From Gallionellaceae bacterium (GTDB lineage Bacteria; Pseudomonadota; Gammaproteobacteria; Burkholderiales; Gallionellaceae), in assembly GCA_019753125.1 (NCBI GenBank), contig JAIELH010000026.1:18262-82261 (forward strand): a stretch of 64,000 nt of DNA, in the 5' to 3' direction. Shown here one piece after another: positions 3 to 29,691 of the stretch. The notes below the pieces were generated by a model. The model was not told the origin of the DNA. It saw nothing but the letters and a program-made list of their open reading frames with translations, and did no database searches. The number at the start of each line of letters is the position of its first letter. The first letter of the stretch is position 1. The position numbers and the translations under genes are program-made.

Positions 3-575
3 CAAAGCAGCCAAACAAACAGCTATCCGGCAAGTATCCGCAAGTTAGAATCAGGCAACCTCATTCTGGTTGGCATGATGGGGTCCGGAAAAACCACGAT
101 GGGAAGGTTGCTGGCCAAGCATCTGGGCAAGACCTTTATCGACAGTGATGAAGAAATCCAGAAACGTACCGGTGTAACCATTCAGCACATATTTGATGTT
201 GAAGGCGAGGCGGGTTTCCGCCAGCGCGAAACGGTTGTGCTTTATGACCTGGTTCAACAAGATAATTTGGTGTTGGCAACCGGTGGCGGCGCGATCCTGT
301 CGGAGCAAAACCGTGCGATGCTGCAACAGAATGGCATCGTTATTTATTTGAAGACAGGCGTGCCGGATTTGTTGCAGCGCACCCGGCATGACCGCAATCG
401 CCCGTTGTTGCAGACCGGCGATCCATATGCCAAATTGACGGAGCTGCATCAGCAGCGCGATCCGCTGTACCAGCAGGTTGCGGATGTTGTCATTCAGAGC
501 GGCAAGCAGAGCGTGCACGCCTTGATGTTGCGCTTGGTGGATGAAATAGGGTTGTTCAGAAAAAACAGCGCTTAG
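3..575 (+). CDS. aroK: Shikimate kinase, 5' end outside window
   Basis: Phosphorylates shikimate to shikimate 3-phosphate in the cytoplasmic chorismate pathway. The Walker A loop GMMGSGKTT is followed by the shikimate-binding DSDEEI segment and a GGGAI loop, then a lid region with RTRHDRNRPLL. The ORF track starts at the ATG at 75, but that codon lies inside the P-loop. The preceding codons encode NLILVG, the expected first beta strand, and the frame stays open to the window edge. The true start is therefore upstream and the gene is listed as partial. It is followed by aroB, the usual partner. Product call is firm; only the start is unknown. Confidence 0.93.
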   Translation, partial: QSSQTNSYPASIRKLESGNLILVGMMGSGKTTMGRLLAKHLGKTFIDSDEEIQKRTGVTIQHIFDVEGEAGFRQRETVVLYDLVQQDNLVLATGGGAILSEQNRAMLQQNGIVIYLKTGVPDLLQRTRHDRNRPLLQTGDPYAKLTELHQQRDPLYQQVADVVIQSGKQSVHALMLRLVDEIGLFRKNSA

Positions 576-26829: not shown

Positions 26830-27693
26830 AACGAACGACCGCAAAAACTGGAACCCGCATTATATGTAGTTGCCACCCCGATTGGTAATTTGCGCGATAT
26901 CACGCTGCGCGCGCTGGATGTGCTGGCGGCGGCTGACGTGGTCGCGGCGGAAGACACGCGCAATACCGCCCATCTGTTGACGCATCACGGCATCGGCGCA
27001 AGCCGGCTGATGGCGGTGCATCAGCACAATGAACGCGGCGCTGCGGAAAAAATCGTCGCGTTGCTGCAGGCGGGACAAAGCGTCGCATTTGTCAGCGACG
27101 CGGGCACCCCGGCCGTCAGCGATCCGGGCGCATTGCTGGTGCAGGCCGTGCTGGCGGCGGGCCTGCGCGTCATTCCGATTCCCGGCGCGAGTGCCGCAAT
27201 CGCGGCACTGTCGGTCTCCGGGCTGAATCATCCGCATTTCCTGTTCTATGGCTTCCTGCCGAACAAGTCCGCCGCACGGCGTACGGTTCTGGAATCCTTG
27301 CGCGACCATCCCTGCACGCTGGCATTTTACGAAGCGCCACACCGCATCGTCGAATGCGTGGCCGACCTGCATGCGGTGCTGGGCGGCGAGCGGCAGATCG
27401 TGCTGGCGCGCGAGATCACCAAGCTGTTCGAAACGATTCATGCCTGCCGCCTGGCCGATGCCGAGGCCTGGTTGCTGTCCGACAGCAACCGGCAGCGCGG
27501 CGAGTTTGTCGTGCTGGTTTCCGGTGCGGGACCGCAACCAGGTTTGCCTGCCGAGGTAAGGCGCATTCTCGAAGCGCTGCTCGGAGAATTGCCGCTCAAA
27601 CAGGCGGTGCAGCTCGCCGCAAAAATCAGCATGGCCAACCGCAACGACCTGTATCAACTGGCGCTGGAAATAAAAGATTCACGGCAGCCATAG
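26824..27693 (+). CDS. rsmI: 16S rRNA (cytidine-2'-O)-methyltransferase
   Basis: Methylates C1402 of 16S rRNA with SAM. Tetrapyrrole-methylase fold: LYVVATPIGNLRDITLRALDVL, AAEDTRNTAHLL, VSDAGTPAVSDPG, and IPGASAAIAALSVSGL. 289 residues. The start is TTG at 26824, with AGAGGA seven bases before it; no ATG or GTG fits. This start overlaps the divergent lppC start codon by 3 bases within TTGCAT. Confidence 0.95.
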   Translation: MHNERPQKLEPALYVVATPIGNLRDITLRALDVLAAADVVAAEDTRNTAHLLTHHGIGASRLMAVHQHNERGAAEKIVALLQAGQSVAFVSDAGTPAVSDPGALLVQAVLAAGLRVIPIPGASAAIAALSVSGLNHPHFLFYGFLPNKSAARRTVLESLRDHPCTLAFYEAPHRIVECVADLHAVLGGERQIVLAREITKLFETIHACRLADAEAWLLSDSNRQRGEFVVLVSGAGPQPGLPAEVRRILEALLGELPLKQAVQLAAKISMANRNDLYQLALEIKDSRQP

Positions 27694-27833
27694 CGTCCTC
27701 AGAACTTATGTGGGATGCCATACAGTATTGACAGTATTTCGCAAAACGCGGAAACTGTGCGCCATAACCAGCGACTTAACGAGTGTTGTTTGCTCACCTA
27801 GTCAGATGGCCAGTAGCTCTATCAGTAGTTCAT

Positions 27834-27888
27834 TAGTGCCGATTTGACATCAGCTTGCGGGGCACTTAAAAGATTCCAGCTAAAGCGA
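27834..27888 (+). ncRNA. SAM-II riboswitch upstream of metX
   Basis: AGTGCC (27835) pairs exactly with GGCACT (27861) as P1. The loop begins GATTTGA and carries GCTTGC. P1 is followed by TAAAAGA and then CCAGCTAAAGCG, where AAGC (27883-27886) can pair back to GCTT (27853-27856) to close the pseudoknot. Layout and conserved words match the SAM-II (metA) class, which binds S-adenosylmethionine. It sits before a methionine gene and is followed by a terminator. Confidence 0.82.
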
Positions 27889-27891
27889 GGC

Positions 27892-27928
27892 AACCCGTTT
27901 TGGCACAAGCTGAACGGGTTTTGTTTTT
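27892..27928 (+). terminator. Intrinsic terminator between SAM-II aptamer and metX
   Basis: AACCCGTT (27892-27899) pairs with AACGGGTT (27913-27920), followed by TTTGTTTTT. Placed directly after the aptamer and before the metX start, it suggests SAM-dependent transcription termination in addition to, or in place of, translational control. Confidence 0.8.
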
Positions 27929-27940
27929 GGGATAGACATT

Positions 27941-29080
27941 TTGAACGCATCGAATAGTATTGGTATCGTGACAGCGCAGCGTGTGCGATTCGACACCCCG
28001 CTGGTCTTCCGCAGCGGTGCGGTGTTGCCGCGCTACGAGCTGGCGTATGAGACCTATGGCAAGCTGAATGCCGGCAAGAGCAATGCGATCCTGATTTGCC
28101 ATGCGCTGTCCGGACATCATCATGTGGCCGGCTATTACGCGGATGACCCGGCGAACACCGGCTGGTGGGACAACATGGTGGGGCCGGGCAAGCCGATCGA
28201 CACCGATAAATTCTTTGTGATCGGGGTGAACAACCTCGGTGGCTGTCACGGTTCGACCGGGCCATCCTCGATCAATCCGGAAACAGGCAATCAATATGGC
28301 GCAAGCTTTCCGGTCATCACGGTGGAAGACTGGGTGGAGTCGCAGGCGCGTCTTGCCGACTTGCTCGGCATCCGGCAATTCGCCGCAGTGATCGGCGGCA
28401 GTCTGGGCGGCATGCAGGCGTTGCAATGGTCGCTGGCTTACCCGGAGCGGGTGCGGCATGTCTTCGCGATCGCCGCCGCGCCGCGCCTTACCGCGCAGAA
28501 CATCGCGTTCAACGACGTGGCGCGCAATGCGATCCTGACCGACCCGGATTTTCATGGCGGCGATTATTACCAGCACGGTGTGGTGCCGACGCGCGGGCTG
28601 CGCCTGGCGCGCATGCTGGGGCATATCACTTACCTGTCCGACGATGCGATGGCCGACAAGTTCGGGCGCGGGCTGCGCGCCGACAAATTCGGCTATAACT
28701 ACGACATCGAATTCGAGATCGAGTCCTATTTGCGTTATCAGGGCGACAAATTTGCCGCCTATTTTGACGCCAACACCTATTTACTGATGACCAAGGCTCT
28801 GGATTATTTCGACCCGTCGCATGATTTCGGCGGCGATTTGAACCGGGCGTTTTCCCGCGCGCAGGCGAATTTTCTGGTGATCTCGTTCACCACCGACTGG
28901 CGCTTCTCGCCACAGCGTTCGCGCGAAATCGTGCGCCCGTTGCTGCACAATCGCCGCAATGTCAGCTATGCGGAAATCACCTCCACGCATGGGCATGATT
29001 CCTTTCTGATGGAGCATCCGCATTATTTCGACGTGATGCGCGCCTATCTCGACAACGTAGCCAGCGAGTGCTGCAAATGA
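27941..29080 (+). CDS. metX: Homoserine O-acyltransferase MetX
   Basis: Alpha/beta hydrolase that activates homoserine by acyl transfer at the start of methionine synthesis. Nucleophile elbow [12 protein letters not shown], oxyanion region [13 protein letters not shown], and catalytic DxxH end [11 protein letters not shown]. 379 residues. The start is TTG at 27941 with GGGA eight bases before it. Betaproteobacterial MetX proteins can use succinyl-CoA or acetyl-CoA; the sequence alone does not decide. Controlled by the SAM-II riboswitch; metW overlaps its stop. Confidence 0.95.
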
Positions 29081-29691
29081 ACCCGAACGACATCGCCAAA
29101 CTTGCGATAGCCCGGCCCGACTTCGCCGCGATCGCATCCTGGATACCCAAGGGCGCATCGGTGCTCGACCTCGGCTGCGGTGACGGCAGTCTGCTGCGCT
29201 ACCTCAAGGAAACACGCGCCGTCAGCGGCTACGGCGTAGAGATCAGCGACCTCGATATCGTGTCGTGCATCGCCAACGGCGTGAACGTGATCCAGAACGA
29301 CCTCGAGTCCGGTTTGTCCGATTTCGAAAGCGGCTCGTTCGACTTCGTGATGCTGTCGCAAACGCTGCAAGCGACGCGCCATACCGAGCCGTTGATTCAG
29401 GAGATGCTGCGCGTCGGACGCGAAGGCATCGTCAGCTTCCCCAACTTTAGTTACTGGCGCAACCGCCTCAGCGTGCTGCTCGGCAACATGCCGGTGTCGA
29501 GCGAATTGCCCTACCAGTGGTATGACACGCCGAACGTGCATCTGTGCACGCTGAACGATTTCGAAACATTCTGCCGCGACCATCGCGTCGCGATACTCGA
29601 ACGGCGCGTGATGACCGGCGAGCGCGAAATAAGCGTGCTGCCGAATCTGCTCGGCAGCACGGCGGTGTACCGGTTTCAGCGTGGGTTGTAG
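29077..29691 (+). CDS. metW: Methionine biosynthesis protein MetW
   Basis: Methyltransferase-fold protein with [16 protein letters not shown] (motif I) and [36 protein letters not shown], hallmark of MetW. It usually acts with MetX and is required for its activity in some proteobacteria. Start at ATG 29077, overlapping the metX stop as ATGA; the track start 9 bases earlier is a GTG inside metX. 204 residues. Confidence 0.94.

Follow-up and report, generated by a model that had tools for sequence, protein, structure and literature searches.

A SAM-II riboswitch upstream of metX-metW in a Gallionellaceae bacterium, in which the SAM-binding strands appear to double as an antiterminator

Riboswitches of the SAM-II class (RF00521, SAM_alpha) are commonly found in a terminator-linked form (Corbino 2005; Barrick & Breaker 2007; Huang & Lilley 2018), and the length of P2a differs among known members (PMC6061858). 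For S. meliloti metZ, Scheuer 2022 (PMC9373788) describes a predicted SAM-dependent terminator, at which termination gives a leader RNA of approx. 100 nt, and this leader RNA rises under high SAM. In Leyn 2014 (PMC4239095), SAM_alpha is reported only from Rhizobiales and Rhodobacterales, and a novel element, metXZ, is presented for beta-proteobacteria, in which it lies upstream of metXW or metZ and has conserved regions capable of forming a pseudoknot, with six conserved regions in its alignment, a downstream terminator and a proposed antiterminator. A further Rfam family, RF02424 (Bp2_287, 'Burkholderia sRNA'), has been described next to metZ and metX (Khoo 2012, PMC3521395).

The locus considered here lies within a 64,000-nt stretch of DNA from a Gallionellaceae bacterium (contig JAIELH010000026.1; hereafter, the window), and its features are listed in Table 1. 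An initial annotation had placed a SAM-II riboswitch with its own terminator in front of metX-metW. All of the SAM-II pieces that it quoted (P1, GATTTG, GCTTGC, TAAAAGA, and GCTAAAGCG at 27879-27887) could be located, and the identity of metX and metW was confirmed by NCBIfam models, with rsmI as the upstream neighbour. The element therefore stands upstream of methionine/SAM biosynthesis genes, as SAM-II elements do. The annotation also contrasted the terminator with alphaproteobacterial SAM-II, which was said usually to hide the ribosome site; this was mistaken, since SAM-II elements with terminators are common, and the element is thus not new in kind. What the window adds is a clear example of terminator-linked SAM-II in betaproteobacteria of the Gallionella group, together with a base-level, testable prediction for the coupling of ligand and termination, namely that the SAM-contacting strand would itself be the antiterminator.

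Table 1. Features of the metX-metW leader and operon in the window (positions are those of the window).
Feature	Position	Strand	Details and basis
Probable sigma-70 promoter	27728-27756	+	TTGACA 27728-27733, 17-nt spacer, weak -10 GAAACT 27751-27756
Insert of approx. 60-70 nt between promoter and aptamer	27762-27833	+	Decayed palindrome CGACTTAACGAG; leader lengthened
SAM-II aptamer core	27835-27885	+	RF00521 and order-built model matches; P1 covariation
P1 stem	27835-27840/27861-27866	+	AGTGCC/GGCACT, 6 pairs; sequence
L1	27841-27846	+	GATTTG; sequence
P2 5' strand	27853-27858	+	GCTTGC; sequence
P2 3' strand	27879-27885	+	GCTAAAG; sequence
Candidate antiterminator helix H1	27850-27913	+	UCAGCUUG 27850-27857 with CAAGCUGA 27906-27913; 8-bp perfect complement, encloses H2
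Candidate antiterminator hairpin H2	27879-27904	+	GCUAAAGCG 27879-27887 with CGUUUUGGC 27896-27904; 9 bp
Intrinsic terminator	27892-27928	+	Stem 27892-27899/27913-27920, inner GGC/GCU, U tract 27919-27928
Shine-Dalgarno (SD) and TTG start of metX	27929-27943	+	GGGA 27929-27932, TTG 27941-27943; sequence
metX, homoserine O-succinyltransferase	27941-29080	+	NCBIfam NF047916, 681.6 bits (cut-off 560)
metW	29068-29691	+	NCBIfam TIGR02081, 255.7 bits (cut-off 189.5); overlaps metX (operon)

The resemblance to described SAM-II RNAs comprises P1, the ligand-binding core (GAUUUG, UUGC, and GCUAAA, all intact in the window aptamer), a predicted H-type pseudoknot layout, the methionine-synthesis genes downstream and the terminator after the aptamer. 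A search with RF00521, which the initial annotation had proposed as a check, did return a full-length match (27826-27900, plus strand, model positions 1-79, 33.0 bits, E 6e-6, in a permissive search of the 321 nt from 27680 to 28000), but its score is under the Rfam gathering score of 36 bits, and in a standard Rfam search no family reached its gathering score across the window. The window aptamer further differs from RF00521 SAM-II in that it has no clear P2a helix and in that its leader is lengthened by an insert. To avoid dependence on the Rfam threshold, a model with P1 as the only structure was built from 40 aligned aptamers, all taken from families of the order other than that of the window. 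This order-built model gave the window aptamer 52.3 bits (E 1.3e-13; the runner-up in the window reached 13.4 bits), and within the whole 2.47 Mb genome the aptamer was the sole convincing match (E 4.9e-12). An 18-bit RF00521 match elsewhere in the genome was rejected, as it is without the SAM-II core.

In the 40-sequence alignment, 99.4% of the P1 cells pair, and the covariation score of P1 is 0.156 compared with 0.049 in shuffles, none of 500 of which reach it. Among 105 distinct aptamers, the third pair of P1 is C-G in 51 and U-A in 54; GATTTG is present in 102 of them, and GCTTGC and GCTAAA, both of which belonged to the search pattern, are present in all 105. The GC/GC core of P2 is able to form in each of the 40 aligned aptamers; it is invariant and thus compatible with the pseudoknot rather than evidence for it. 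A swap test gave no support for the P2a extension, which many SAM-II RNAs have (p=0.99 in Gallionellaceae and 0.17 in the order).

The intrinsic terminator that had been read between the aptamer and the TTG start (AACCCGTT..AACGGGTT, 27892-27920, with a T tract at 27919-27928) is indeed there: its hairpin folds with -13.3 kcal/mol, and TTTTGTTTTT stands directly 3' of the stem. A simple terminator scanner gave zero hits at the leader because the stem is interrupted and the outer loop is over the scanner's limit; the terminator is nonetheless present. Of the 66 Gallionellaceae leaders examined, 65 have a hairpin of -8 kcal/mol or lower together with a T tract, and the exception (L108) also has a hairpin, which was not accepted by this rule.

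Within this leader, the SAM-binding strand appears, from its base-pairing potential, to double as an antiterminator. The minimum free energy (MFE) fold of the leader contains H1 and H2, not the terminator, and the H2 partner at 27896-27904 comprises the 5' arm and the upper stem of the terminator. In stepwise folding, the MFE, at first -14.1 kcal/mol, falls to -20.2 kcal/mol when the polymerase moves past 27902-27904, and H2 is complete once 27904 has been transcribed, ahead of the terminator 3' arm. The antiterminated state and the state with P1 plus terminator have equal computed energies (-26.0 kcal/mol each), in which the pseudoknot and SAM are uncounted, as the folding ignores pseudoknots, ligand, and kinetics. 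The folding z-score of the full leader is an unremarkable -0.62, and energy by itself therefore proves nothing.

Chance complementarity was assessed by shuffling the terminator hairpin of each of 51 distinct relatives with its own base pairing preserved. H2 was better than 95% of the shuffles (p<0.05) in 50 of the 51 terminators and H1 in 42, in tests that are not independent of each other, and three control aptamer segments passed this level in 0, 0, and 1. Compared with 127 unrelated terminators at these loci, both H2 and H1 are far stronger (Mann-Whitney p 9e-24 and 4e-20, respectively, although the relatedness of the leaders and the invariance of the aptamer side mean that the p-values overstate independence); the control segments were not stronger against these 127. 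In a wider set of 62 terminators that covers other families of the order, and in which some metX and metZ leaders come from one and the same genus, the counts were 38 for H2 and 33 for H1, with 0 and 5 for two controls. The terminator sides of the pairing vary widely (CGUUUUGGC, CGCUUUAGC, GCUCUAGC, and CCCGCGAGAGC), which argues that complementarity has been maintained and that the sequence has not been plainly copied; since the aptamer strands are almost invariant, this is maintained complementarity and not two-sided covariation. Some aptamers that read GCUAAAGA are without H2 and have retained H1.

Because H1 and H2 use strands needed for SAM binding, ligand binding and antitermination would be mutually exclusive. 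Without SAM, the P2 3' strand (GCUAAAGCG) would pair with 27896-27904 as the latter leaves the polymerase, the P2 5' strand (27850-27857) could form a second helix with 27906-27913, and the terminator would be blocked, such that metX-metW would be transcribed. With SAM, which the window RNA is predicted to bind, the P2 pseudoknot around the ligand would hold both strands and leave the terminator arm free; the hairpin at 27892-27920 would then form, and RNA polymerase would halt at the U tract. We infer from the leader both the direction of control (SAM switching the operon off) and the efficiency of termination. The S. meliloti metZ riboswitch, with its predicted SAM-induced terminator, is the closest parallel for such a mechanism, although it is from an alphaproteobacterium, precedes metZ, and, in the main text of the paper, was not tested for pairings of the H1/H2 type (PMC9373788). 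The SAM-II identity of the window element and the transcriptional control of metX-metW that the initial annotation had proposed are both well supported by the model match, conservation, gene context, terminator, and antiterminator. The window RNA is very probably an ordinary sensor of the methyl donor SAM, by which transcription of an operon for methionine synthesis is shut off, and we regard it as highly likely that this SAM-II riboswitch governs metX-metW by transcription attenuation.

A SAM-II aptamer might instead act mainly on translation, with a terminator that is constitutive or yields a leader sRNA, as has been argued for S. meliloti metA, the validated terminator of which is not predicted to be SAM-responsive (PMC9373788). 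The SD region (GGGAU) pairs with L3 of the aptamer in longer folds of the window leader, and in two relatives in the order (L126 and L132) an ATG lies directly 3' of the aptamer. However, the arm of the window terminator can pair with the aptamer strand, this complementarity is conserved, and the SD lies approx. 43 nt 3' of the aptamer core, past the terminator, all of which makes a mainly translational role unlikely. It is far less probable still that the element is a decayed, non-functional SAM-II relic, even though this would account for the sub-threshold score (33 bits against 36) and an insert separates the promoter from the aptamer. The core nucleotides are all intact, as are the terminator and antiterminator, the aptamer reaches 52 bits with the model of 40 other-family aptamers, and most of the SAM-II metX leaders in the order (25 of 36) are likewise under the cut-off.

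Assignment to SAM-V, SAM/SAH, or another pseudoknot riboswitch deserves equally little weight. SAM-V has the same SAM-binding pseudoknot core as the window element and shares this core and its ligand mode with SAM-II (PMC6061858), and the window P2a is weak, as in SAM-V. However, SAM-V is translational and has P3, whereas the hairpin between P1 and L3 is absent from the window aptamer, and the terminator platform is typical of SAM-II. RF00521 was the sole riboswitch family to match at an E limit of 10, up to which the SAM-V model had no match in the window.

The SAM-II element is widespread among the relatives of the window. The closest metX sequences come from Gallionella and Gallionellaceae metagenome-assembled genomes (identity up to 90%), which points to a Gallionella-like betaproteobacterium as the source of the window. 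The GATTTG..GCTTGC core precedes metX in 75 of the 80 closest loci (Gallionellaceae); two of the five core-less loci are contig ends with less than 170 nt of upstream sequence. Of 61 relatives, 28 have an RF00521 match; across the order, such matches occur in 177 of 399 genomes (over the cut-off in 69), compared with 0 of 14 control genomes. Of 109 metX leaders across the order, 36 have both P1 and the SAM-II core by pattern search, where shuffles expect 0.03 and the reverse strand of the same leaders gave 0; most of the 109 leaders are without a pattern-visible core. The Rfam cut-off was reached by 11 of the 36 core-bearing leaders and missed by 25, which suggests that it hides approximately two thirds of the SAM-II metX leaders in the order. 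Eight of the 36 carry an extra segment of a kind that would defeat the RF00521 model. This segment, mostly hairpin-forming, lies between P1 and the AAAU..GCUAAA strand, at a place comparable to that of P3 in SAM-V, and extends this interval to 39-58 nt from 19-21 nt (L212, L240, L241, L246, L266, L271, L273, and L275, and in addition L142); the eight metX aptamers that have it are all under the RF00521 cut-off.

A cut-off that hides SAM-II leaders would account both for the description of metXZ as a new element and for the presence of a mirror-image sRNA family in Rfam. The window agrees with the published description of metXZ, where the element is presented as novel, in position, predicted pseudoknot layout, terminator, and antiterminator (PMC4239095). 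Given the core in 36 metX leaders, only 11 over the cut-off and 8 with the model-defeating segment, the metXZ element, as it is described in Leyn 2014, is probably a SAM-II riboswitch below the Rfam threshold. RF02424 occurs at the same type of locus, with metX/metZ flanks, and most of its model reads as a SAM-II leader and terminator in reverse complement; in contrast to the window element, its annotation is that of an sRNA encoded by the other strand, and the link rests on relatives, as the match in the window is 12.4 bits (minus strand, 27911-27840), below the cut-off of 70. Among 20 loci (L142-L161), cmscan placed RF00521 on the strand opposite RF02424 in 15, and in two further loci (L146 and L154) RF02424 is antisense to SAM-II by pattern. 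Only at L142 does an RF02424 match exceed the cut-off; it runs antisense to a SAM-II core that contains an inserted hairpin, and the gene that follows this SAM-II is metZ-like, judged from its translation only. RF02424 thus corresponds largely to the antisense strand of SAM-II leaders. On balance, we think it likely that one beta-proteobacterial SAM-II riboswitch underlies the RF00521 hits, metXZ, and the wrong-strand RF02424, and that its SAM-binding strands serve as the antiterminator, in a coupling kept order-wide despite diverging terminators.

Further upstream, almost every Gallionellaceae metX locus has the block ATTGACAnnnnnnnnCAAAACnCGGAAACT, as a rule 41-42 nt ahead of the GATTTG of the aptamer, and 27728-27756 is probably the promoter of the window leader. 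The distance from TTGACA to GATTTG is 114 nt in the window compared with 41-42 nt in most relatives, and about a dozen related Gallionella loci have similar inserts of variable length at the same place. The palindrome of the insert (CGACTTAACGAG..CTCGTTAAGTCG) is intact in L054, decayed in the window, and found at a few other sites in the genus; the possibility that it is an abundant genomic repeat was rejected, as there is one copy in the genome and few in the genus. The start codon at the metX start position in relatives is TTG, GTG, or ATG.

Several relatives show other arrangements. In three loci (L011, 1516-1740; L027, 1501-1680; and L028, 1516-1710), a SAM-II aptamer with a terminator is followed by a second SAM-II-like aptamer near the start codon, with an additional hairpin in L011 and L028; the second copies had no Rfam match. 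These tandems were not retained as new, because SAM-II tandems have been reported earlier (PMC9481103). The aptamers of L126, L132, and L258, from the same order, end in GCTAAAGAGGTC, which is followed within a few bases by an ATG, and resemble the type that acts directly on the ribosome site. In L208, a SAM-II riboswitch (119-201, minus strand) and a c-di-GMP-I riboswitch (437-518, plus strand) diverge within one short intergenic region.
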